Assembly: GCA_002718095.1 (NCBI GenBank)
Contig: PBDP01000009.1
Span: forward strand, 1-14,487
Direction: 5' to 3'
From: Chloroflexota bacterium
GTDB taxonomy: Bacteria; Chloroflexota; Dehalococcoidia; Lucifugimonadales; UBA826
Length of the DNA: 14,487 nucleotides
Both the position numbers and the translations under genes were made by a program. The notes under the pieces were generated by a model. It was not told the origin of the DNA, ran no database searches, and worked only from the letters and a program-made list of their open reading frames with translations. Below, piece by piece: positions 1 to 13,098 of the stretch (position 1 is the stretch's first letter; every line of letters starts with the position of its first letter).

Positions 1-136
1 TGATTCTAATATATGAAGAGATATTGCACAAAGAGAAAATAGGTATTTAGATTCATGATTTTGTAAAGCTTGTCTTCCTTATGGGTTTGAATTAAGATTC
101 CGATTAGTGAAACGATGTTTTAATCAATGGTTTAAT

Positions 137-835
137 ATGATGAATTTGAAGTTTTTGTCACTTTTAATAATGTCTTTATTTATTATTTCGTGCTTAGCAG
201 ATACAGAGAACACTGAAGAAACTGCAGGAAATCCTTTTGGGTTTGCAACAGGCGATATAGTAGTCTCTGATATTCAAACGGAAGATATAAGAGTTGATAA
301 TATTACTAACGATACGTCTGATTCTAGGTCTGAAACACCTGTGGCACCCAAGTTTACGGAACCGATACAAGAATATTTAGACTATCAGGTCTTTGATGGA
401 TTAGTTCAAGATTTTTACGCTGTTACGGACTGTGATCAAGATGTCATAAGGACTCCAGTAGCAAATTTAACCTGGGTACCTTCTTCTCTAACTCCAGAAA
501 ATTTGAGATTAGATGTTACACATTATGGATCTTTAGGATTTAGTAGAAATTCTTATTTGTCACTTGATGTATCCCAATCACAAGAAATTCTACGATTTAC
601 TAATATATATTCAGCAGACGAAGAATTTATAACCAATACCACCTTACCTGATTTGTCTGTTTTGGAATTTAATTCAGATGAATCTATAACTGAATTAACA
701 GTTTCTGGATTAGATCCAGGAATTATTTACAAATGGCGTTTAGTTGGATATGTAGGAGATGAAATTTTTGCTACTCCTAGTCGAAGATTAATTGGCAAAA
801 CCTGCATTGCCGACCTTATTGAAGAGGAAGAATAG
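137..835 (+). CDS. Small lipoprotein with possible FN3-like domain (copy 1)
   Basis: A family I do not recognise. From the ATG at 137 the protein is 232 residues: a short hydrophobic signal ending in a lipobox (FIISC, Cys19), so a predicted lipid-anchored exported protein, then an acidic linker rich in Asp/Thr/Ser (about 22-75). The C-terminal half has a TW strand, an RLDVTHYG strand and the ending LDPGIIYKWRLVG, which resembles a fibronectin type III-like beta-sandwich; this is fold-level inference only. Two cysteines (about 99 and 223) bracket that half and are conserved in the paralogue at 4070, so they may form a disulfide. An in-frame GTG at 107 would add ten residues before the signal peptide. 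I prefer 137 or 140 because the paralogue starts at the matching position and has GTT where this copy has GTG. No clear ribosome binding site is seen. The next gene starts 3 bp after the stop. Confidence 0.8.
   Translation: MMNLKFLSLLIMSLFIISCLADTENTEETAGNPFGFATGDIVVSDIQTEDIRVDNITNDTSDSRSETPVAPKFTEPIQEYLDYQVFDGLVQDFYAVTDCDQDVIRTPVANLTWVPSSLTPENLRLDVTHYGSLGFSRNSYLSLDVSQSQEILRFTNIYSADEEFITNTTLPDLSVLEFNSDESITELTVSGLDPGIIYKWRLVGYVGDEIFATPSRRLIGKTCIADLIEEEE
824..830 (+). promoter_or_regulatory. Ribosome binding site for the copy 1 propeller gene, inside the preceding gene
   Basis: GAGGAAG lies 8 bp before the ATG at 839 and within the last codons of the small lipoprotein gene. This suggests that translation of the two genes is coupled and supports 839 as the start. 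The same stretch encodes the acidic Glu-rich C-terminus of the small protein. Confidence 0.65.
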
Positions 836-838
836 AAT

Positions 839-3800
839 ATGAATTATTTGAATGGACTTTTCAGTAAGAACATTTTTAAGTATTTAGTCGCAATGTCAAT
901 TATAGCTTCGGCGTTCTTATTTTTTGTTTCTTGTGCATTTACAGATATTAGCCCTGACCAATCTGATTTAGGTGATGTAGAAAAAAAACACGGTGGTAGT
1001 GGAGGACGAATAAATGGACTTGGGATTTCTTCTAATGGACAGATTGCGTTTGCTGCTTCAGAGTGGGGGGGGATATTTAAGAGTTATGACGCAGGATTAA
1101 CTTGGGACCATCTGGGTTCACATGTTCCAGTTGCTACTTGGGATGTTGAGATTTCTCCTACAGACCAAGATAAAGTATATGTTTCCTCTTTTTTTGATGG
1201 GAAAATTGATTCTTTATCAGGAATAAGTGTTAGCTCAGATGGAGGTGCAACTTGGATAAATCCTCCTACAGCTACGCCGTCAGAAGAATTTTGTTCAGGC
1301 GTAATCTATCAGCAAAATAAATCCTACTCTAATAAGTTTACTAATTTATCAGGTAATCCATGGCCAGAAGGAAATTTTGGTGCTATGGGAATTTATATAA
1401 ATCCTGATAATACTAACGAAGTTTATATAGGAACCTGGTGTGGGTTAGCTATTTCAAGAGATGCAGGGTTAACGTGGGAATTCGAAGACCCTTTTGTTTT
1501 ACCTGATACTGCATCGGAAGACGTTGTTCATCAACCTGCGGCAATTTGGGATGTGGTAGTCCATAATAATGGTATTGTTGATGTGTGCGGCGCAGATGGA
1601 CACTTTAGGCGTTTGTCTGATAATGATACTTGGTCGACCAATATTCAAAATGGATTCGGGTTACCCGGTGGAAGATGCTCTATCGCAGTATCACCGCACG
1701 AACCTGATGTTTTGTTTGCTTCCGTTGGAAAATCTCTTTACCAATCATTAGATGGTGGGGCGTTCTGGTTCGACCTTGATGAACCTGCTGGCACTCAAGG
1801 AAGGATCCCATTTGTAGAAACTAACGAAAGAGATGCAAATAGTTTTGACCTTTGGTACGGAGATACACAGTTATATGCTCGTACTTGTACTACCCCAGAT
1901 GCTTTGGATGTTGATTCATTAGATAATTTTAGATGTTGGGGTTCTAATTGGATTAATCATCAAGAAGGAGCCCACTGGGATGTTGGGGCTTTAGTATTTA
2001 ATCCTACACAATCTACAAATGCATGCCCCATTTTATTTTCAAATGATGGGGGAGTGTTTTACAACACACTTACCTCTTCTGATACTTGCCATGACCCAGT
2101 TTGGGATGAACCAGATATTACTCCACATGCATTATGGCTAATGGGAATGTCAGGGTTTAAAAAACCCGGAGATGGTGAAGACTTGTATTTTGGCAGTCAA
2201 GATGTAGGTATTTTTGAAACAAATAATGCTGATTCAGATAAACCAGACTGGAGGAATTCGTCTGGAGCTGACGCATTCGATATTATAGGAGATTCAGAGA
2301 AAGTCCTTAGAATTAGAGGATCTTTCAGCCCAGGCCCTCAGTGGCGCATACAATTTAAAGACCCTCAAGGAGTAGACCTTTCATTCCCTTCTACTGCAGG
2401 ATCTTTCGGCGTGGGGCTGGGTAATGGCTCTTGGTTGAAAACTTCTAATTACCCTCCTTTTGGAGCTCTAATTGGGTTTAAGCCACAGGATACAATTGCT
2501 CAGTACGGTCCTAATTCTTACGCTCTCCTTACTACAGCTAATCTAAATATAACTCCAGATATTACTGTGGATCCTGTCCAATGGCTCAGTTTGGGTAATC
2601 CTGGATCTGGAGGTGAATGTGGACTTAAAGTTTCAAAAGATATTAAAACTCTTGAGTTTGCAGATAATATTTTGACTGGCAATAATATTCCTATATTAAT
2701 TGAGCAATATTCATTTTTCATACAGACGACACCAGAGATGACGTCAAATGGATGTTGGGGACATTCAATAGATAGTATTTGGAGGTTTGATGGTATTGAT
2801 CCTAATATAGGGAATTGGACACAAATTCATCCACCAGGCGATCAAATGACTAAAAGGGGAGTTTACGCAGCTAAACCAGGATACGGCGGATTTAGCTTGT
2901 ATGATGTCGATCCGAATAATCCTAACAGGATAATAGCATCACAAATAATTCCAATTGATAAAAGTGGAAACGTCATAGAAAATAATGACAAGATGCTTGA
3001 ATTGCTACAGGCGTATTACGATAGTAATTTAGACGATTCTCTTGGAGAATTTGAAACTCGAATGGTGATGACAGAAGACGGTGGAGCTACTTGGGAAATC
3101 CTTTCAGGTTTAGATCAGAAAATGTCTGGAGACGGTCAATTTAAACCCTATACAGGATTGGGGGGACCTACAAAATTTAGCGAATTCGCTCCAGGATATT
3201 TTCAACCTTCTTTGCTCGAATTTGATCCTTATGATGATGACATTATTATAGCTGGAGCTGCGGATGCAGGAGTATTTGTTAGTACTGATTCAGGTGAAAA
3301 ATGGACTTTATTAACTGATCCTTATACTCCATCTGATGACCATCCTCATATTCCTAGACCAAGATTTGCTCATTTTGAGCACGATGTAGAAGGTTTTTCT
3401 GAAGAAGTTATAAATGTATATATTGGGACTCAAGGAAGAGGAGTCTGGAAGCTTACAGCGTTAGTAGATTTTGAAATAAAAATTACATCTACTGAAACTG
3501 CATCACCTGGTGACGATATAACTAAAAAAGTAAATCTTGTGCTTAAAAATGCTGGAGCAGTAAAAACTCAAAATGTTGACATTACCATTTATCTTTCAGC
3601 AGATGATAGGATTTCCGACCGAGACCTTGTTTTAGATAGAATTTATTTGAAAAATGATCCCAATATGATCCCATTGGCTGCAGGAGAGCAACATAATTAT
3701 TCTAAATTATTAGATAATATCAAAATTCCAAGTAGACTTAGGTCTGGCAATTATTATATTTGCGCTATTGTTGATCAACGAAATGAAGTCTCTGAATATA

Positions 3801-3862
3801 GGGATGATAATAACTCTTCATGTTCTCCTATTCAAATAAGGTCTTCGGAATCTAGAAGGTAA
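839..3862 (+). CDS. Asp-box (BNR) beta-propeller lipoprotein with C-terminal CARDB-like domain (copy 1)
   Basis: Large exported protein of 1,007 residues. The N-terminus has a hydrophobic segment (about 15-31) ending in a lipobox FVSC (Cys32), so it is predicted to be lipid-anchored. Asp-box motifs (S-x-D-x-G-x-T-W type) are seen at residues 82-89, 132-139, 206-213, 303-310, 745-752 and 815-822, with a variant SNDGGVFY at 401-408. These mark beta-propeller blades as in sialidase, GH74 and sortilin-like proteins; the opening GGRINGLGIS and the EWGGIFKS strand fit that class. The middle (about 420-740) has no clear Asp boxes. Residues about 876-1000 look like a CARDB domain (N-A-G turn, YLSADD, IPSRLRSGNYYI, EVSEYRDDNN). 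The tail ends SSESRR. I see no conserved hydrolase active site, so a surface-binding role is as likely as glycan hydrolysis. The gene follows the small lipoprotein by 3 bp and has a close paralogue at 4780-7920. Confidence 0.88.
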   Translation: MNYLNGLFSKNIFKYLVAMSIIASAFLFFVSCAFTDISPDQSDLGDVEKKHGGSGGRINGLGISSNGQIAFAASEWGGIFKSYDAGLTWDHLGSHVPVATWDVEISPTDQDKVYVSSFFDGKIDSLSGISVSSDGGATWINPPTATPSEEFCSGVIYQQNKSYSNKFTNLSGNPWPEGNFGAMGIYINPDNTNEVYIGTWCGLAISRDAGLTWEFEDPFVLPDTASEDVVHQPAAIWDVVVHNNGIVDVCGADGHFRRLSDNDTWSTNIQNGFGLPGGRCSIAVSPHEPDVLFASVGKSLYQSLDGGAFWFDLDEPAGTQGRIPFVETNERDANSFDLWYGDTQLYARTCTTPDALDVDSLDNFRCWGSNWINHQEGAHWDVGALVFNPTQSTNACPILFSNDGGVFYNTLTSSDTCHDPVWDEPDITPHALWLMGMSGFKKPGDGEDLYFGSQDVGIFETNNADSDKPDWRNSSGADAFDIIGDSEKVLRIRGSFSPGPQWRIQFKDPQGVDLSFPSTAGSFGVGLGNGSWLKTSNYPPFGALIGFKPQDTIAQYGPNSYALLTTANLNITPDITVDPVQWLSLGNPGSGGECGLKVSKDIKTLEFADNILTGNNIPILIEQYSFFIQTTPEMTSNGCWGHSIDSIWRFDGIDPNIGNWTQIHPPGDQMTKRGVYAAKPGYGGFSLYDVDPNNPNRIIASQIIPIDKSGNVIENNDKMLELLQAYYDSNLDDSLGEFETRMVMTEDGGATWEILSGLDQKMSGDGQFKPYTGLGGPTKFSEFAPGYFQPSLLEFDPYDDDIIIAGAADAGVFVSTDSGEKWTLLTDPYTPSDDHPHIPRPRFAHFEHDVEGFSEEVINVYIGTQGRGVWKLTALVDFEIKITSTETASPGDDITKKVNLVLKNAGAVKTQNVDITIYLSADDRISDRDLVLDRIYLKNDPNMIPLAAGEQHNYSKLLDNIKIPSRLRSGNYYICAIVDQRNEVSEYRDDNNSSCSPIQIRSSESRR

Positions 3863-4069
3863 TTATCAGAATATTTAAGTACACAATTTTTTTAGATTTT
3901 ATAAATTAAATTCCATCCGCATTTCTACAGATATTAATGGTATTGCGACTGATTTTATTTTTTAAACAATGAAACCATAATCCTCATAAGAGTAGCTTCA
4001 GTCACGGAAACTTGTCTTGATTATTGTTTTCGATTAAAATTTCGAGTAGTTAAGCGATGGTTTACACGT
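3863..4069 (+). other. Intergenic leader between the two duplicated units
   Basis: About 207 bp without a gene. The last 60 bp are homologous to the leader of the first copy (about 69-139). There is a T7 run at about 3888-3894, but I find no GC-rich stem before it, so no canonical terminator can be called and read-through from copy 1 into copy 2 is possible. No convincing -35/-10 pair is seen; TTGCGA at 3943 is a weak candidate only. Confidence 0.5.
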
Positions 4070-4774
4070 ATGAATCTTAAGTTTTTATTACTTTTAATAA
4101 CATCTCTTTTCATTATTTCTTGTGTATCTGTTACCGAGAATACTGAAGAAGATTCTGAAGATCCTTTTGAACTAGCAACAGGAGATATATCCGATCGTTC
4201 AATTGGGGATGGGCTTATAAGTATACGTGATCGTGACATTTCTACGTCAACAAAAGGTATGTCAGATTGGGTTGCACCTCCTAGGCCTTCAGATGAAGTT
4301 CAAGAGTACCCTGATTTCAACGTCTCAAACGATTTGGTTGAAAATTTAAATATAATCCAGACATGTAATCCAAATGTGATACGCACACCACAAGCTAATA
4401 TAAGCTGGGTATCTAATTCCATGACTCCAAGTCAAATGAGATTAGATGTTACCCATTACGGATCTAGAATAGGCTTTATACCAAAATCGTTCGTTTCACT
4501 GGATATTTCTCGTAACTCTAGAGCCCTATTTGAAAGTATACATTTAGATGACCCTGACCTATTACGTAATAGTACTTTGCCGAATTTAGATGTTACTTGG
4601 TTTGATGTATCTGAAAATGAAGAATCAGTCAGGAATTTAATTATTGTAGAAGGTATTGAAGCTGGTATAAATTACCGATGGAGATTGGTTGGCCCAATAG
4701 ATGGACGGGTTGTGGCAACTCCAAGTCAAATGATTACAGCTACAGTATGCGTAGCTGATCTTAAAGATGAGTGA
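4070..4774 (+). CDS. Small lipoprotein with possible FN3-like domain (copy 2)
   Basis: Paralogue of the gene at 137-835, of unknown function. The 234-residue protein starts MNLKFLLLLITSLFIISC, a compact lipoprotein signal with lipobox Cys18. An acidic, low-complexity linker follows (about 20-80), then a beta-rich half with ISW, MRLDVTHYG and an ending GIEAGINYRWRLVG that is FN3-like in pattern. Cys99 and Cys227 match the two cysteines of copy 1. The upstream codons (Lys-Arg-Trp-Phe) resemble the ten-residue extension possible in copy 1 but offer no start codon here, which makes this ATG the natural start. No strong ribosome binding site precedes it. The propeller gene starts 5 bp after the stop, so the pair is probably one transcript and may act together at the cell surface. 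Confidence 0.82.
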   Translation: MNLKFLLLLITSLFIISCVSVTENTEEDSEDPFELATGDISDRSIGDGLISIRDRDISTSTKGMSDWVAPPRPSDEVQEYPDFNVSNDLVENLNIIQTCNPNVIRTPQANISWVSNSMTPSQMRLDVTHYGSRIGFIPKSFVSLDISRNSRALFESIHLDDPDLLRNSTLPNLDVTWFDVSENEESVRNLIIVEGIEAGINYRWRLVGPIDGRVVATPSQMITATVCVADLKDE

Positions 4775-4779
4775 TATAG

Positions 4780-7700
4780 ATGAATTATTTTAATTTAAAT
4801 ACTAATAAAGATATTTTTAAATATTTATTTGCTTCGCTTTTAGCGGCTTCTTTGTTTTTATTGCTGTCTTCTGTGATCTCATCTGACGATATAAGTCCTG
4901 ATCAATCTGATTTAGGTAGCTCTAGTGGGGCAAGTGGAGGCAGAATAAACGGGTTGGGGATTTCATCTGATGGTTCAGTAACTTTTGCTGCCTCGGAATG
5001 GGGTGGCTTATTTAAAAGTAATGATGTTGGGTTAACTTGGTCTCATGTAGATTCACATGTTCCAGTTGCGACTTGGGATGTTGAAGTTTCTCCGGATGAT
5101 CCTAATAAAATTTATGCCACTTCATTTTATGATGGTAAAGTAGATTCTTTGTCAGGGATCAGTGTCAGTAGCGATGGAGGAGTAACTTGGGTTAATCCCC
5201 TTTCTTCAAGACCAGACATGGATTTCTGTCCAAGTATCGCTAGTACATATTCTAATAATTTTGAGAGCGAATCAACTAATTGGACTAATGAAGATAGTAA
5301 ATTTGACGAATCAGATGATGGAAGTATTATTGAAAATCAATATGTTTGGGGGCAAGGGAATTTTGCAGCAATGGGGATTAGTATAAATCCTGCTAATTCC
5401 GATGAAGTTTATATCGGCACTGCGTGTGGTTTGGCAGTTACAAAAGATGCGGGGATTACATGGGAATTCATAGACCCTCCCGCAGATCATGTTAATAAAC
5501 TTCTTGATAAAAATATACCTTGGATGAGTACTCCATTATTAAAATCAATGCATCAACCTACTAAAATATGGGATGTTGTAGTACATGATAACGGAATAGT
5601 TGATGTTTGCGGTGAAGAAGGCCATTTTAGGAAAATTCCTAATAGTTTTTCTTGGAGCACAAGTATTGACCCATCTTTGGGATTGCCGGGAGGGGTTTGT
5701 TCAATCGCAGTATCTCCTCATGAGCCTAACGTTTTATTTTCAGTTGTGGGAACTAGCATTTATACATCGATTGATGGGGGTGCCAGTTGGTTTGATTCTC
5801 CTATAGGTGAACCCGACCCAGTTCCACAAGGAAGAGTTCCATTTATTGAGACTAATGAAATAGATAATAATACTTTTGATTTATGGTACGGTGATGTACG
5901 CCTATATAGTAAATCTTGTACAACTCCGTTACCGACTGATATTAATTACGATGATTTAGTTGACAACTTCAGGTGTAATGATACTGGAATTAATAACTCT
6001 ATTTGGGTGGATCAACAGGCAGGCTCACATGCTGATGCTGGATCCATACTGTTTGATCCCACAGTATCTATTAATTCATGTCCTATATTGTATTCGAATG
6101 ACGGAGGAGTTTATTACAATACAAATAGTCCAGGTGTTTCATTTGGGAATGCAGCTACTGTAAATTGTCACACGCCGATTTGGGATCAACCTTTTGTTTC
6201 TCCTCATGCTTTGTGGCTCACGGGAATGTCTGGATTTAAGAATCCTGGAGATTCTCAAAATTTGTATTTTTCAAATCAAGATAATGGTAATTTTGTATCC
6301 TTCAATGCAGGTTCTGATAATCCAGATTGGGATAATGTAATAGGCGCGGATGGAGTAACAGTTATTGGGGACTCAAATTACATATTAGGAATAAACGGAA
6401 TTTATTCTAATCCCGACCCATGGAGGATCACTTTTTACGATGCTGAAACTGCGCAACCATTATCAGGTTCTAAATCATTTCCTTCTACTGATCTTATCGG
6501 AATGTTCAAATCATCAAATTATCCACCTGGAAGGATAGTAGGATTTAAGCCTGCTTCACCTTTAGCTCAATATGGTGTTAATTCATATGCGTTATTAATG
6601 ACGACAGGCCTTTATTTAACTAGTGATATTACCGCAGATCCAACTATATGGACACCTTTGGGTGATCCGTCTCCAACTGACCCTACCACTTTTAACGATA
6701 AGGCTTGTGGGGTGAAAGTTGTTAGAGAAGAAGTTGATATTGAATTTAATGAATTAGTGAATATGTCTGTAAATCCAAAAATTTACAATCACTCATTTTT
6801 TGTTCAGACCGGAAATCCCGAATATCTCTCACGCTGTTGGGGAGATTCATTAGATCGTGTCTGGCGGTATGATGGCCGTGGTTCAGGTGGAGCATGGACA
6901 GAAATTCTACCTCCTGGTGATGAGGTGTTAGCTAATGGATTAATTAAATCTAAAAAAGGTTATGGGGCATTTAGTCTGTATGATGTCGATCCCAATAATC
7001 CGGATAGGATTATTGCATCACACGTCATACCGATGGATGAAAATGGTCAAGTTATATTAGATGAATATGTTATACAAGATTTTATTCGTGGGGAACACGG
7101 ATTCAGTTATTTTGATATTCGAATGGTGATGTCAGAAGATGGGGGAGATTCTTGGAAACTTCTACCTAATTTGGATAACATGATGACAGGATATGGAAAC
7201 TTTAAATATTTTACAGGGCCAGGCGGAGTTGCTAAATTTACTCGATTAGTTCCAGGCTATTTCCAACCTTCTCTTTTGGCTTTTGATCCTTATGATGAAA
7301 ATTTAATTCTAGCCGGAGGAGCTGATTCTGGAGTATTTTTAAGTAAGAATTCTGGAGATAATTGGGCACTGTTAACAGACCCTTATACTCCAACTGCAGA
7401 GCATCCTCACATACCTAGACCTAGATTTGCACTATTTGATCATGAACCTTCAGGTAAACCTTCAGGTTCAATCGATTTATATATAGGAACTCAGGGTAGG
7501 GGAGTTTGGAAACTTTCACCTTTACCTGATTTGTCTGTGAAATTTCTTGTCACAAAACGTGCTTCACAAGGTGAAGATATAACTAAAAAATTAAAGCTTA
7601 CTGTTTCTAATGATGGTGCAGTAGAAGTTAGTGATGTGTCGATACAACTTTACCTTTCACTTGATCAGTCTGTGTCTGAACGGGATCTTTTATTAGAATC

Positions 7701-7920
7701 TATTACGCTTGATTCTCGTACTATGAGACCAATATATCCGAGTGAGTCGCATAATTATTCTAAATTATTACGAAATGTAGAAATCCCTAGCAGAATTAAA
7801 TCGGGTGATTATTATATTTGTGCTGTAGTTGATCGTGCAAATGAGATTTCTGAGTATAGAGAAAATAATAATGCTTCTTGTGCTCCTATTGAAGTACAGT
7901 CATCAAGATCAAGAAGATAA
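4780..7920 (+). CDS. Asp-box (BNR) beta-propeller exported protein with CARDB-like domain (copy 2)
   Basis: Paralogue of the gene at 839-3862, 1,046 residues. Asp boxes are at 80-87, 130-137, 221-228, 330-337 and 785-792, with degenerate ones at 439-446 (SNDGGVYY) and 855-862 (SKNSGDNW). Blocks shared with copy 1 include LYDVDPNNP, HPHIPRPRF and YIGTQGRGVWKL. A CARDB-like domain spans about 916-1038. Unlike copy 1, the hydrophobic N-terminus (about 15-33) has no cysteine: the lipobox region reads LLLSSVISS. The protein is therefore either released by signal peptidase I, for which no clear A-x-A site is seen, or held by an uncleaved helix. The last codons (SSRSRR) form one arm of a 14-bp hairpin shared with the convergent gene, whose stop lies 1 bp away. 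The substrate or partner cannot be told from sequence. Confidence 0.88.
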   Translation: MNYFNLNTNKDIFKYLFASLLAASLFLLLSSVISSDDISPDQSDLGSSSGASGGRINGLGISSDGSVTFAASEWGGLFKSNDVGLTWSHVDSHVPVATWDVEVSPDDPNKIYATSFYDGKVDSLSGISVSSDGGVTWVNPLSSRPDMDFCPSIASTYSNNFESESTNWTNEDSKFDESDDGSIIENQYVWGQGNFAAMGISINPANSDEVYIGTACGLAVTKDAGITWEFIDPPADHVNKLLDKNIPWMSTPLLKSMHQPTKIWDVVVHDNGIVDVCGEEGHFRKIPNSFSWSTSIDPSLGLPGGVCSIAVSPHEPNVLFSVVGTSIYTSIDGGASWFDSPIGEPDPVPQGRVPFIETNEIDNNTFDLWYGDVRLYSKSCTTPLPTDINYDDLVDNFRCNDTGINNSIWVDQQAGSHADAGSILFDPTVSINSCPILYSNDGGVYYNTNSPGVSFGNAATVNCHTPIWDQPFVSPHALWLTGMSGFKNPGDSQNLYFSNQDNGNFVSFNAGSDNPDWDNVIGADGVTVIGDSNYILGINGIYSNPDPWRITFYDAETAQPLSGSKSFPSTDLIGMFKSSNYPPGRIVGFKPASPLAQYGVNSYALLMTTGLYLTSDITADPTIWTPLGDPSPTDPTTFNDKACGVKVVREEVDIEFNELVNMSVNPKIYNHSFFVQTGNPEYLSRCWGDSLDRVWRYDGRGSGGAWTEILPPGDEVLANGLIKSKKGYGAFSLYDVDPNNPDRIIASHVIPMDENGQVILDEYVIQDFIRGEHGFSYFDIRMVMSEDGGDSWKLLPNLDNMMTGYGNFKYFTGPGGVAKFTRLVPGYFQPSLLAFDPYDENLILAGGADSGVFLSKNSGDNWALLTDPYTPTAEHPHIPRPRFALFDHEPSGKPSGSIDLYIGTQGRGVWKLSPLPDLSVKFLVTKRASQGEDITKKLKLTVSNDGAVEVSDVSIQLYLSLDQSVSERDLLLESITLDSRTMRPIYPSESHNYSKLLRNVEIPSRIKSGDYYICAVVDRANEISEYRENNNASCAPIEVQSSRSRR

Positions 7921-7945
7921 TTTAATACCTACTTCTTGATCTTGA
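7903..7945. terminator. Bidirectional hairpin overlapping the 3' ends of two convergent genes
   Basis: TCAAGATCAAGAAG (7903-7916) and CTTCTTGATCTTGA (7932-7945) are perfect reverse complements, giving a 14-bp stem and a 15-nt A/T-rich loop. The loop holds both stop codons (7918-7920 on plus, 7922-7924 on minus). There is no strong T-run on either side, so it may act as a weak terminator or as an mRNA 3'-end stabiliser for both transcripts. Confidence 0.7.
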
Positions 7946-10351
7946 ACTTCTATCTTCACTTGGAGTTTCTCTACCTCCTCGATCTGTATCAGTAGGTTCA
8001 ACTCTTTCAGCCTCTCGTGTTACTGTGGTGCTTTCTCTAGCTTCCTCTTCTATTATTGGCTCTCTATTTGTATTATCTGAATCTGGTTGAAGGTCTTGAC
8101 GTTCCTCTACGATTTCAGGGTCGTTCCTTACAGGGTCTGGGTCTGATTCAGGTTCTCTTCGTTCGGTTTCTATAATAGCCTTTTCTTCTACATTGTCTTC
8201 TGGCTTTACATACTCTTCTCTAACAGAATCCTCATTTCCGCTATCAATAGAATCCTTCACAGTTTCTTTTTCAGTTTCGACCTGACCTTCTTCAATTACT
8301 GGATCAGAATCTATAGTTACTCTGGGTGTTTGTATATCATTTAATATCTTTTCTGATATCTCAGTATTGGATGCTTCTTTTAAGGATTTTTCAGCCCTTT
8401 TAACTATATCGATCTGTTCGGAAATTTCCATTAATCTTTTAGGGTCACTTTCAATTTTATCTATTGAATTCATGGATGTTGTAATGGATATTAATTTGTC
8501 AGAAAGGGATGGAGGTAATCCTTCTATTTTAGTTATTTCTTCTCTAGATTGGATTTGAGTAATTGAATCCTCCTTTTCCTTATATATTCGGTAATCCCCT
8601 TTTGTTTTTTCTTCTATAATTATCCCGTCTGTAGTTCTATGTATGGATTCTCCAGAGCTCAATTTAATTGTTGTAGCCCCATCCGTAAAAGATCCTACTA
8701 TATTGCCTTCTGAATCTTTAATGAAGCTACTTTTGATCCCATCAGAGTATTCAACAGCATAATTTCTTTCGGATGTTTTTGATATGTCTGTGCCGTCAGG
8801 AAATTTCAGCCTCAGGGCTTGATCTTTTGACTTTATAAACTGGATTCCATCTTCGTTTTTGATGGACCGTAAGGGTACGTCTATGTCGTCCATAGAGCTA
8901 TTAAATGAATCGATAATTTCTCCTGTTTTGATATCTGTAATCTTTACCTCATTAATAATTCCGTTATTGAAATCTGACTCATATTGTTCATCTTTGTCAG
9001 ATTGATAGAGAGCGGAGGATAAACTTGTGGATTGCCTTACTTCTGTAACTGATTTCGATGCGACAACCGTTTGTATGTCACCGTTACTAGAGGATTTGAT
9101 TTTTAATATTTGCAAGTCTCTGTCTTCTTCAAAGTCGTCTTGAATTGTTATATTGGGTACAGTTCCTTTTAGGGTTGTTGTTGGGTTTCCGTTTCCGGAA
9201 TGCAGCAGTGTGAATTCATTATCTGACTTAGAGTTTGTTTCTAAAGATACTGTAAATTCTGATGTTTCAGGAGGAAGATAAATAACTTTTACTCCATGTC
9301 CAAATGTTACTCCAGGCATAATGTAGGTTTTTGCATCTTCTATACCGATATTACTGGAATCAGGTCCAAATATTATAGAATTTTCGTATTCATCAGATAC
9401 AGTAATAGTTGTCTCTTGGTTAGAATCGGTGTTAAGTATTAAAACTGATCCACTTCCTTGTAAATCGTCAGAAGTTTTTTCGCAGAAAAAACATTTGAAA
9501 TTATCATTTTGAACCGTATGGGGTATTAAAGCCATGCTACCTTTGCCGGATTCCTCCCATATTCCTGCCTGAGATTCAGGGTTTTCATGAGCTCCTTGGT
9601 AAGTCCAAGTTCCATTATTGCTTACCTCAATAGATCTTACTTGTCCTGGCCAATTACTGTCGTAAACATCAATGACGAATCCACTATTAAAGTCTTCTAT
9701 GCTTATGGGAGTGACTGAATGGGCTCCATTTGATGAATATAAATTTAAAGTTACGGGAGTAGTTAATTTACCATTATTTGGCGATAAGGTTTTTTGTAAT
9801 TCAGATACTATTTCTAAAGGATATTTTGTAATAGATTCATCGAGCTTATTTCTGAATTCTTCAGTAAATTGAAGCATATGCCAACGGGCTATTTCGTGAT
9901 CTGTTTGCTTAGATCTTTCGAGTTCAAATATTATTTCTTTGTCGATAGAGATATTTCCTGTAAATAAATTGCTAGACATTGCACTAAAGCCGTAGCAGAG
10001 GCCGTTTCCTAGAACCAAATTTAATTGATCTAAGAAATCGATTACTCCAGGATATGGATTGCATTCACTGCCACTTCCTTGTGCACAGATTCCGTTTTCT
10101 CCAAAGAAATCTATTAAATCTTTAGTTTTTATACTGGAATTATTGCTACCTCCAGAAAAATTTTTGAATCCAAAGCCGTCTTTTTCGGGATTAAATACTT
10201 GTAAAGTATGGATATCTTCATTGAGTGTTTTATCTGGCACATTAACGGATGCCACTTCAGGTAATACAGGAGATTCACTAGATGGGGAACATGCTATCGG
10301 TATAAGCACTACCAGTGACACAAATATGTAATTCAAAATCATTTTTGGCAT
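7922..10351 (-). CDS. Lipoprotein with papain-like cysteine protease-type domain and acidic repeat tail
   Basis: From the ATG at 10351 the protein is 809 residues. A signal peptide ends in lipobox IPIAC (Cys21). Residues about 80-260 carry GNGLCYGFSAMS (Cys119), NGAHSVTPI (His211) and VIDVYDSNWPG (Asp231/Asn233). This Cys, His, Asp/Asn order and spacing fits papain-fold peptidases, and the pattern G-x-C-x-G-x-S followed by YD-x-N-x-P is known from uncharacterised predicted cysteine peptidases; activity is inferred. A CxxC pair follows (287/290). Residues about 500-585 are short beta repeats with FPDGT, YSDGI and TDGAT turns, resembling TCP10/CENPJ C-terminal-type sheets. Then come a probable coiled coil (about 630-672), a long Glu/Asp/Arg-rich tail (about 680-788) and an SSRSRSRY end. 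In-frame starts also exist at 10357 (ATG) and 10381 (TTG). I prefer 10351 because the likely promoter -10 (10390-10395) would leave almost no leader before the TTG. The gene converges on the propeller genes. Confidence 0.75.
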   Translation of the reverse strand: MPKMILNYIFVSLVVLIPIACSPSSESPVLPEVASVNVPDKTLNEDIHTLQVFNPEKDGFGFKNFSGGSNNSSIKTKDLIDFFGENGICAQGSGSECNPYPGVIDFLDQLNLVLGNGLCYGFSAMSSNLFTGNISIDKEIIFELERSKQTDHEIARWHMLQFTEEFRNKLDESITKYPLEIVSELQKTLSPNNGKLTTPVTLNLYSSNGAHSVTPISIEDFNSGFVIDVYDSNWPGQVRSIEVSNNGTWTYQGAHENPESQAGIWEESGKGSMALIPHTVQNDNFKCFFCEKTSDDLQGSGSVLILNTDSNQETTITVSDEYENSIIFGPDSSNIGIEDAKTYIMPGVTFGHGVKVIYLPPETSEFTVSLETNSKSDNEFTLLHSGNGNPTTTLKGTVPNITIQDDFEEDRDLQILKIKSSSNGDIQTVVASKSVTEVRQSTSLSSALYQSDKDEQYESDFNNGIINEVKITDIKTGEIIDSFNSSMDDIDVPLRSIKNEDGIQFIKSKDQALRLKFPDGTDISKTSERNYAVEYSDGIKSSFIKDSEGNIVGSFTDGATTIKLSSGESIHRTTDGIIIEEKTKGDYRIYKEKEDSITQIQSREEITKIEGLPPSLSDKLISITTSMNSIDKIESDPKRLMEISEQIDIVKRAEKSLKEASNTEISEKILNDIQTPRVTIDSDPVIEEGQVETEKETVKDSIDSGNEDSVREEYVKPEDNVEEKAIIETERREPESDPDPVRNDPEIVEERQDLQPDSDNTNREPIIEEEARESTTVTREAERVEPTDTDRGGRETPSEDRSSRSRSRY

Positions 10352-10389
10352 TGTCATCTCATTAAAAGAAACGATTATCAATTCATCTA

Positions 10390-10501: not shown

Positions 10502-11056
10502 ATGATTGCTAAGAAAAGGTTATTGATGGTCGGGGTTCTTATGTCCGTTATGCTGATGGCTTCATTTGCATGCGGTGATGAAGAAGAAGTAGTTCTGGAG
10601 CCGACCGCTGTTGAAGTAGTCGAAGAGGTCGCTGCAGAAGAGCCAGCACAAACAGTTGTCGATATAGCAGTAGCAGACGGTAGATTTACTACACTGGTTA
10701 CAGCGTTGGGGGCAGCAGATCTTGTCGGTGTATTAAGTGGAGAAGGTCCATTTACAGTCTTTGCACCTACAGATGATGCGTTTAACAACTTACCAGAAGG
10801 TACGCTAGATAGCCTCTTAGCTGATATCCCAGCTCTAACAGATGTGCTCTTATACCATGTTGTAAGTGGAAAAGTAATGGCTGCAGATGTAGTCGGATTA
10901 GATTCAGCTGAAACAGTACAGGGTAGCTCTGTAGGCATTTCAGTTATGGGTGAAAGCGTTATGGTTGACGACGCAAATGTCATCATAACTGACATCGAAG
11001 GATCTAACGGGGTTATACACGTAATTGATGCGGTAATAATTCCCGCTGCAGAATAG
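10502..11056 (+). CDS. Fasciclin (FAS1) domain lipoprotein
   Basis: A 184-residue predicted lipoprotein. The signal peptide ([11 protein letters not shown]...) ends in lipobox SFAC with Cys24, followed by a Glu/Val/Ala-rich acidic linker (about 26-48). A single FAS1 domain fills residues about 50-182: it has the two family signatures, [10 protein letters not shown] (85-94) and [11 protein letters not shown] (169-179), and the LLYHVV motif with the conserved Tyr-His (118-119). FAS1 domains mediate adhesion or carbohydrate/protein binding outside the cell; no enzymatic role is expected. The length is typical of bacterial single-domain FAS1 proteins. The gene stands alone, with its own promoter, a strong ribosome binding site and a strong terminator, which points to an abundant monocistronic product. 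Its codon use looks somewhat richer in GC than the propeller genes, in line with high expression. Confidence 0.95.
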
Positions 11057-11201: not shown

Positions 11202-12338
11202 CTATCTAGGAGTTGTTATTCCGTTTAATTCTTCGATCGATTCATAAATACAGCCAGGTCTTACCATTGCATCTTCATCGTATATGTTTGTGTTTTCATT
11301 CCATTGTTCATAGTAAAACATCAAACTTATAACACTAGTTAAAGATACTGCAGAAGTCATATCATCTAAATACAACATAGGACAATGATTCATAAAATGC
11401 CCTGATCCAATTTGCTCAAATACTGTTAATTCAGTTCTGCCATTTATCCCTGAATTATTGTAATCGTCCCAATTGCCAACATATCCTATTACCTGACCAG
11501 CTTTTACCATACTTCCTTCTGAAATTTCTTGCCCGTCAATTTTTAAAGGAAGAGGACATTTCAGTTGATAAATATTTTTTCTGTCACAATCTATACTAGT
11601 TATGTGGTCTATAGATATTCCCCAGTTTGAAGACATGGTTGGCTTGATGATAATTTCCCAATCATCTTGTGTGTATCCTTCTGTTGGTTGCCATTTGATA
11701 TATGTTATGACTCCATCAATAGGGGATACTAATACTGTGTCTGCGGGAGCTTTTATTTCAAAGTTGGGATTGTAATACTGATCTTGTTGACCTTCATTAT
11801 GTATTCTTCCAAATTCATCAAATACTAGATGAGTATGATTTTCATTAAATATTATGTCTCCAAACGTTTTTGAATAAGCATCATAGTAAGGTCCGAAATT
11901 TTTAATTAGTAAATTTTGCAAAGATATTTTTGGAGATTCTTGTTGAGTCATACTACCGCCAGGCATGATGTTTATTAGGTCTTTCATCATATTTACACTA
12001 TCGTCTGAACTCCATTCTTTTTCTTCTTCTGACCATTCACTGAATTCTTCTGACCACTCTGTAATTCCTTGAGACCATTCGGTCATTTCTTCTGCTAACT
12101 TGTTTAATTCTTCTTGCTGCTCAGGGATAGATGATGAATTAGGATCCGATGAAGATATTCTGATACTTTCTTCTAGATTGATTGTTATATCATTTCCCGG
12201 GTCATTCACTGACTGCGCAGATACAGAGTTTACAAATTGGGAATTCCCATCTTGGATTTCTATAGTATTTTTTTGATCGTTACTACAGCCCAAGATAATT
12301 AATAAAATTGAAGTAGTTAAGAGTAGATATTTATACAT
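11202..12338 (-). CDS. Lipoprotein with degenerate M23/LytM-like domain and EWS heptad repeats
   Basis: From the ATG at 12338 the protein is 378 residues. It begins MYKYLLLTTSILLIILGC with lipobox Cys18. A Ser/Asn/Glu-rich linker leads to four heptads starting EWS (residues 87-114), likely helical. Residues about 165-310 resemble the barrel of M23/LytM peptidases: HLVFD (170-174) matches the HxxxD zinc motif, VSPIDGVITYI the core strand, SIDHI (His245) a later strand and VKAGQVIGYVG (278-288) the typical turn. However, the place of the HxH motif reads LTVFE (304-308), so at least one zinc ligand is missing and the protein is probably not an active peptidase. It may bind peptidoglycan or act as a scaffold or activator, as other inactive LytM proteins do. 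A TTG at 12353 is an alternative start that would overlap xth by 11 bp; the ATG lies 4 bp after the xth stop. No obvious terminator follows the gene. Confidence 0.7.
   Translation of the reverse strand: MYKYLLLTTSILLIILGCSNDQKNTIEIQDGNSQFVNSVSAQSVNDPGNDITINLEESIRISSSDPNSSSIPEQQEELNKLAEEMTEWSQGITEWSEEFSEWSEEEKEWSSDDSVNMMKDLINIMPGGSMTQQESPKISLQNLLIKNFGPYYDAYSKTFGDIIFNENHTHLVFDEFGRIHNEGQQDQYYNPNFEIKAPADTVLVSPIDGVITYIKWQPTEGYTQDDWEIIIKPTMSSNWGISIDHITSIDCDRKNIYQLKCPLPLKIDGQEISEGSMVKAGQVIGYVGNWDDYNNSGINGRTELTVFEQIGSGHFMNHCPMLYLDDMTSAVSLTSVISLMFYYEQWNENTNIYDEDAMVRPGCIYESIEELNGITTPR
11997..12080 (-). repeat. Four tandem 21-bp units coding for EWS heptads
   Basis: The units encode EWSQGIT, EWSEEFS, EWSEEEK and EWSSDDS, one after another. 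Trp and Ser are constant at positions 2 and 3 of each heptad, and the other positions are mostly acidic. The seven-residue period puts the Trp on one face of a helix, as in a short coiled coil. Confidence 0.85.
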
Positions 12339-12342
12339 GTTA

Positions 12343-13098
12343 TTAGATATCAATTTCTATGCTTACAGGACAGTGGTCTGATCCCATAATGTCTGCATGA
12401 ATAGAGGCACTTTTTAAATTTGAAGATAATATATTTGAGATGCAGAAATAATCTATTCTCCATCCAACATTTCTATCTCTTGATCTTCCCATATAACTCC
12501 ACCATGTATAGTTATCACCTTCATTATTAAAATGTCTGAAAGTATCAATAAATCCATGATTGACAATATTATCGAATCCTCGTCTTTCTTCTATTGTAAA
12601 GCCGGCATTACGTTCATTCGATTTTGGGTTTTTCAGATCGATTTCTTTATGAGCAACATTTAGATCACCACAAAATATAACTGGCTTTGTTTTTTCAAGC
12701 TCAATAACATAATTTAAGAAATCTATATCCCATTCATTTTCTCTATAGCCAAGTCTAGATAGATCTCTTTTAGAATTTGGAGTGTATACAGTAACAAGGT
12801 AAAAATTTGGATATTCTAATGCTATGACTCTTCCTTCAGAATCATGCTTTTCTATACCAAGATCATTTTTTACATTTATAGGAGTATCTTTTACTAATGC
12901 TAATGTACCTGAATAGCCTTTTTTTTCTGCACTATTCCAGTATTGTGTATATCCTGGTATTTCTAGTTCAACTTGATCAGGATTGGCTTTTGTTTCTTGA
13001 ATACAAAATATGTCAGCATTTATGTCATTAAAGAAATCTAAGAATCCCTTTTTTAAACAGGCTCTTATTCCGTTTACATTCCAAGATACAAGTTTCAT
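12343..13098 (-). CDS. xth: Exodeoxyribonuclease III / AP endonuclease
   Basis: A 251-residue member of the ExoIII/APE1 family. It is an Mg2+-dependent enzyme that cuts DNA 5' of abasic sites in base excision repair and has 3'-phosphodiesterase and 3'-5' exonuclease activity. All key residues are visible: Asn7 (SWNVNG), Glu35 (QETKA), Tyr105 (VYTPNS), Asp145 and Asn147 (GDLNVAH), Asp216 (WRIDYF), and Asp241-His242 (GSDHCPV). The length is normal for the ExoA subgroup, so the gene is complete. AAGGGA, about 6 bp before the ATG, serves as ribosome binding site. The start is only 22 bp from the 3' end of tRNA-Leu, and the next lipoprotein gene follows after 4 bp, so all may share one transcript. 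Confidence 0.97.
   Translation of the reverse strand: MKLVSWNVNGIRACLKKGFLDFFNDINADIFCIQETKANPDQVELEIPGYTQYWNSAEKKGYSGTLALVKDTPINVKNDLGIEKHDSEGRVIALEYPNFYLVTVYTPNSKRDLSRLGYRENEWDIDFLNYVIELEKTKPVIFCGDLNVAHKEIDLKNPKSNERNAGFTIEERRGFDNIVNHGFIDTFRHFNNEGDNYTWWSYMGRSRDRNVGWRIDYFCISNILSSNLKSASIHADIMGSDHCPVSIEIDI

Follow-up and report, generated by a model that had tools for sequence, protein, structure and literature searches.

GH74 xyloglucanases are tandem propellers of seven plus seven blades built from Asp-box repeats (PDB 2cn2, 6p2m, 6mgj), and the Sortilin/Vps10 domain is a ten-bladed Asp-box propeller. In this study, we describe a bacterial family of Asp-box propellers that appear to have a dedicated partner. 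The stretch examined (hereafter the window; 14,487 nucleotides (nt)) covers positions 1 to 14,487 of contig PBDP01000009.1 in the Chloroflexota assembly GCA_002718095.1 and carries, twice over, a gene for a small exported protein followed by a gene for a large propeller. On balance, and with moderate confidence, we read this locus as a mobile two-gene module that underwent tandem duplication long ago within this lineage and that would encode a secreted FN3-like partner and an Asp-box propeller acting at the cell surface.

Asp-box propellers include GH33, GH58 and GH74 as well as the non-enzymatic Vps10 receptors (PMC2716378), and the fold alone therefore cannot decide between enzyme and receptor. 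The two-gene unit itself is apparently undescribed: in agreement with a first-pass annotation of the window, we found no account of the pair in the literature searched, outside which most subscription papers lay.

Results

A small lipoprotein gene and a gene for a propeller of about 1000 amino acids occur as two head-to-tail copies on the forward (+) strand of the window, at positions 140-3862 and 4070-7920. The small gene of copy 1 (140-835, +) encodes 231 residues from the ATG at 140, with the lipobox IISC and a predicted FN3-like C-terminal half; its start is the ATG at either 140 or 137, and a GTG at 107 is not kept in copy 2. The propeller of copy 1 (839-3862, +; 1007 residues) has the lipobox FVSC and ends in a CARDB domain. 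In copy 2, the small lipoprotein (4070-4774, +; 234 residues) again carries IISC, while the propeller (4780-7920, +; 1046 residues, likewise with a C-terminal CARDB domain) showed no lipobox by pattern or inspection. By the same means, small proteins and propellers alike were found to begin with a signal peptide or a lipobox. Only 3 nt in copy 1 and 5 nt in copy 2 separate the two genes.

Direct repeats with 71-83% DNA identity, spaced about 3.93-4.08 kb apart, span the entire unit. At the protein level the copies have diverged widely, to 45% identity between the small proteins and 57% between the propellers. Comparing the copies by the NG86 method, for which synonymous divergence (dS) is near saturation in both genes, we obtained nonsynonymous divergence (dN) over dS of 0.48/1.37 for the small gene (ratio about 0.35) and 0.36/1.34 for the propeller gene (about 0.27). 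Both genes are under purifying selection, and both copies are intact and open. No third copy of either gene is present in the organism's own genome (1.44 Mb, 94.6% complete). Upstream of the unit, the leader of copy 1 (66-125, +) matches that of copy 2 (4008-4067, +) without gaps at 45 of 60 bases, the best of 60 shuffles reaching 35. The first-pass annotation had proposed a two-copy unit with conserved order, tight spacing and a shared leader, in which both genes were retained despite their divergence, and each of these elements is borne out.

Two features of reading frame were also noted. In copy 1 (833-841), the propeller is in frame with the small gene, with only a TAG stop and one codon between them; in copy 2 and in the Acidobacteriota loci described below, the two frames differ. 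The frame of the small gene is also open well 5′ of its ATG in both copies (59-139 and 3953-4069, +), where it reads alike (xCLxYxFxLxFRxVKRxF) with no start codon in common. By eye, changes in this extension are not concentrated at third positions, and a regulatory leader is thus as likely as a coding one.

Among the other sampled genomes of the window's family, order, class (393) and phylum (400), no full-length propeller of the family was found; three loci from these wider samples (L006-L008) gave weak Asp-box matches only. A scan of GTDB contigs identified one full-length member, in a metagenome-assembled genome of the Terriglobia (L005, Acidobacteriota). Directly upstream of it, with a 1-base overlap (TGATG), lies the gene for an exported protein of 203 residues that is homologous to the small protein of the window (blastp E 3e-8; hhalign E 1.3e-7). 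The propeller occurred in 6 of 396 genomes from that phylum, and two more full-length members came from a nearer sample. Altogether the gene pair is found in seven Acidobacteriota loci (L005, L017, L018, L019, L021, L041 and L042). A further relative, from Pseudomonadota, sits on a plasmid of Cupriavidus taiwanensis (L010; NZ_CP016951.1, 3131-11045) and has the same gene order in decayed form: the small gene is reduced to its C-terminal part, the propeller after it has a shifted N-terminal frame and is interrupted by an IS21 element, and another transposase gene cuts into the small gene. We kept the pieces of this locus separate and joined none. It is the sole real plasmid relative, a match on a Persicobacter plasmid covering 16% and being generic. 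Two scans of viral contigs with propeller alignments returned no relative, and tblastn gave no match in phages. The tandem duplication is specific to the window's lineage; all other genomes examined carry the unit singly.

In 10 of 11 cases, the propeller is preceded immediately and in the same orientation by the small gene, namely in both window copies, the seven Acidobacteriota loci and the decayed plasmid locus; the eleventh propeller is L020. In six loci (L017, L018, L019, L021, L041 and L042) the stop of the small gene overlaps the propeller's ATG by 4 nt (ATGA). Matches to a small-protein profile ranged from E 6e-12 to 4e-78 and each adjoined a propeller; across seven whole genomes every convincing match stood beside one, with a single stray at E 0.42. 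The expectation that the genes act as a unit is thereby upheld, with homologues together in the same order across three phyla and mostly joined by a stop/start overlap. Far from being commonly found alone, the small gene never was in these seven genomes, and a lone propeller was encountered once. The further expectation that the small gene precedes an Asp-box/CARDB gene holds for the propeller and fails for CARDB, which is not conserved. The sequences of small proteins and propellers diverge in parallel (Mantel r 0.95, p 2e-4, nine pairs), and between the window and Acidobacteriota identity is 19-27% for the small protein and 39-47% for the propeller. Among six Acidobacteriota loci, for which gene calling was rough, no further conserved neighbour was found; a gene of about 158 codons is common to the close relatives L018 and L042 only. 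Both gene trees pair the window copies as sisters (support 100/100 and 99/99), with L020 and L021 as long branches of uncertain place, and this sister relationship makes the tandem arrangement a lineage-specific duplication.

Two loci show other arrangements. The L020 propeller (genome G1049, contig C12) carries PKD domains and has a sensor-kinase-like gene, named by inspection, 113 nt upstream; a second, partial propeller match occurs in the same genome (C101:30-461). A more distant Asp-box propeller, of 947 residues, was found at L043 (G1381:C241; E 5e-53); its contig yielded no small partner, and it may lie at the limit of the paired family.

The small proteins share one common region, with a conserved Cys, the motifs RT..A.I.W, GF and LEPG.NY.WR, and C.AD. 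None of the family libraries searched, Pfam and NCBIfam included, holds a curated family that covers them. Weak fn3 matches were obtained for four of seven small proteins, with PF25788 reaching E 7.5e-5 in one. Because these matches, though weak, are consistently of fn3 type, our best guess is that the small protein folds as an FN3-like sandwich. In keeping with this, its C-terminal half has the LEPGxNYxWR pattern of the fn3 and Rha78A N-terminal Ig domains (PF00041, PF25788). It differs from them in the additional region in front, with the conserved Cys and RT..A.I.W, and in that all matches fall below the Pfam cut-offs; for PF00041 the best small protein scored 15.0 bits against a gathering score of 25, and the window copies gave no match.

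The conserved core of the propeller corresponds to about residues 37-912 of copy 2. Its Asp-boxes gather in the first third and again close to the end, and the motifs that vary little or not at all are A[AS][ST]E[WF]GG, a CGxDGH-like motif and QDxG. Homology to GH74 covers the N-terminal half of the propeller (hhalign E 6.5e-16; hmmsearch against PDB 2cn2 E 1.2e-15), in an alignment that begins at the propeller start (GGRxNGL to GGYVxGx) and continues across several Asp-box blades. In the C-terminal half, by contrast, matches to GH74 are confined to short stretches; the core also exceeds that of GH74 in length and contains large inserts, and the family propeller has a small FN3-like partner. 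The Asp of the GH74 motif R-x-D-I-G-G, which is replaced by Ala in the 2cn3 sequence relative to 2cn2, is taken here to be the first catalytic Asp, as known from Xgh74A. At this position, all 10 propellers checked have Glu instead (SEWGG, SEFGG or TEWGG in place of RTDIGG); in the A-A-S-E-W-G-G motif of the window copies its codons lie at 1061-1063 (+) in copy 1 and 4996-4998 (+; Glu73) in copy 2. We assume the second catalytic Asp of GH74 to be that of G-D-x-G-G in the C-terminal propeller. Our alignment did not reach it, and the Q-D-x-G at residues 500-503 of copy 2, conserved in 10 of 10 propellers checked, is a candidate counterpart.

Other libraries gave partial resemblances. Matches to Sortilin/Vps10 (PF15902) extend over about 70-120 residues and exceed the cut-off in some Acidobacteriota propellers, yet they cover a fragment only of the 446-position model, and the window propellers scored 30.3 and 27.6 against a cut-off of 33. 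The best NCBIfam model for the propellers was NF045728 (F510_1955 family glycosylhydrolase), matched in pieces only and at 66-98 bits against a cut-off of 175. None of the four window proteins matched the anti-phage defence models of PADLOC.

The CARDB domains of copy 1 (3467-3817, +; PF07705, E 2.9e-06) and copy 2 (7525-7875, +; E 1.2e-08) pass the gathering score of 22.7 with 27.8 and 35.6 bits, respectively, and no other locus examined carries one. In L017, L019 and L041, the C-terminal parts consist of HYDIN/ASH Ig domains with an outer-membrane beta-barrel, in L020 of PKD and in L010 of Tectonin repeats; judged from these predicted domains, the C-terminal parts of the propeller are swapped between lineages. 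The lipobox of the small protein, too, is present in the window and in L019 and not in all relatives. Hence, the original label of a lipoprotein with a CARDB protein describes the window correctly (IISC and PF07705 are both there) while naming local features that do not define the unit.

Beyond the unit, the window encodes further exported proteins. A gene for an 819-residue exported protein with no convincing Pfam match (7922-10381, -) converges on the copy 2 propeller, their stops one base apart. Its C-terminal tail, SSRSRSRY, resembles those of the propellers (SSESRR and SSRSRR), and such a Ser/Arg tail occurs in no other protein listed for the contig. Also adjoining the unit are a fasciclin-domain lipoprotein (10502-11056, +) and an M23-peptidase-like lipoprotein (11202-12353, -), which mark the region as rich in exported proteins.

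Discussion

The conserved linkage of the two genes lends good support to a predicted functional pair, whose members very probably work together outside the cell. Under the reading that we favour, the first gene would give a small secreted FN3-like protein, a lipoprotein in the window, and the second a large secreted Asp-box propeller of GH74/Vps10 type, anchored to the cell surface through a C-terminal portion suited to the envelope of each lineage. The small protein would be made just before the propeller, by translational coupling and probably in a fixed ratio, and would serve as its dedicated partner, either a bound subunit or an assembly factor. Together they may bind an extracellular ligand at the surface, most likely a polysaccharide. 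Since a lipid anchor is found on one of the two window propellers only, the complexes formed after duplication may differ in location or in ligand. More tentatively, and with a likelihood we put below even, the module could be a horizontally mobile two-subunit surface receptor or enzyme, in which the FN3-like subunit caps or gates a GH74-like propeller, the anchors are interchangeable and the duplicated pairs are diverging into two specificities.

Several points weigh against the surface-pair reading. The full-length L020 propeller has no small gene anywhere in its genome, so the partner is not universal. Shared descent by itself also yields parallel divergence, whether or not two proteins touch. 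Structure models were too poor to help: copy 1 modelled as one fused chain (365-3493, read through the TAG as Q, with two further propeller rows, the small-protein rows not being alignable into it) reached a predicted local distance difference test (pLDDT) score of 29.8, too poor to show an interface, and the small protein alone, with a three-row alignment, reached 46.3, too poor to use. The first-pass annotation went further and had each small protein matched to its own propeller; with just two such pairs in the genome and a joint model of this quality, copy-specific matching is not supported here and is best taken as a conjecture. Further, no substrate, polysaccharide utilisation locus enzyme or functional neighbour at the six Acidobacteriota loci pointed to a ligand, and the suggested polysaccharide derives from a distant fold-family resemblance.

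Part of this evidence could be accommodated if the small protein were a chaperone that helps the propeller in export or assembly and stays outside the final surface complex. Its gene always comes first and is translationally coupled, its product is exported, it evolves much faster than the propeller by the identities given above, and its lipidation and N-terminal length vary. Yet its conserved sites are gathered in a single FN3-like stretch, the pattern of a binding module, and the L020 propeller has no partner altogether, so we hold this role to be rather unlikely. We would give a slightly lower rating still, and call it unlikely, to the propeller being an active GH74-related glycoside hydrolase with the small FN3-like protein as a substrate-binding accessory. 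Homology of the N-terminal half to GH74, the invariant Glu at the first catalytic position and the conserved Q-D-x-G would all suit such an enzyme; the change from Asp to Glu in every member, an alignment that stops before the second catalytic Asp, a best NCBIfam match (to a glycosylhydrolase family) far below its cut-off and the lack of carbohydrate-utilisation genes around the six loci speak against it.

That the two genes are mere co-inherited neighbours with separate surface functions would account for the parallel divergence by descent alone and for the propeller that stands by itself in L020, but adjacency and ATGA coupling have survived divergence of more than 50% and hold in different phyla, while the loci have no other neighbour in common, which makes mere neighbourhood quite improbable. 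Least credible of all is that the window copies were acquired separately: their divergence is indeed high, but they are sisters with full support in both trees and share both a leader and a CARDB domain found in no other locus examined. The duplicated surface module remains the account that we prefer.

Many uncharacterised bacterial surface proteins are large Asp-box propellers, usually annotated singly, as 'glycosyl hydrolase' or 'sialidase'. A defined propeller family with a fixed, translationally coupled partner offers a handle on function, namely a complex to purify and two paralogous pairs to swap. Its sparse spread across phyla, together with the exchange of C-terminal anchors, points to a mobile module that is adapted anew to different cell envelopes.

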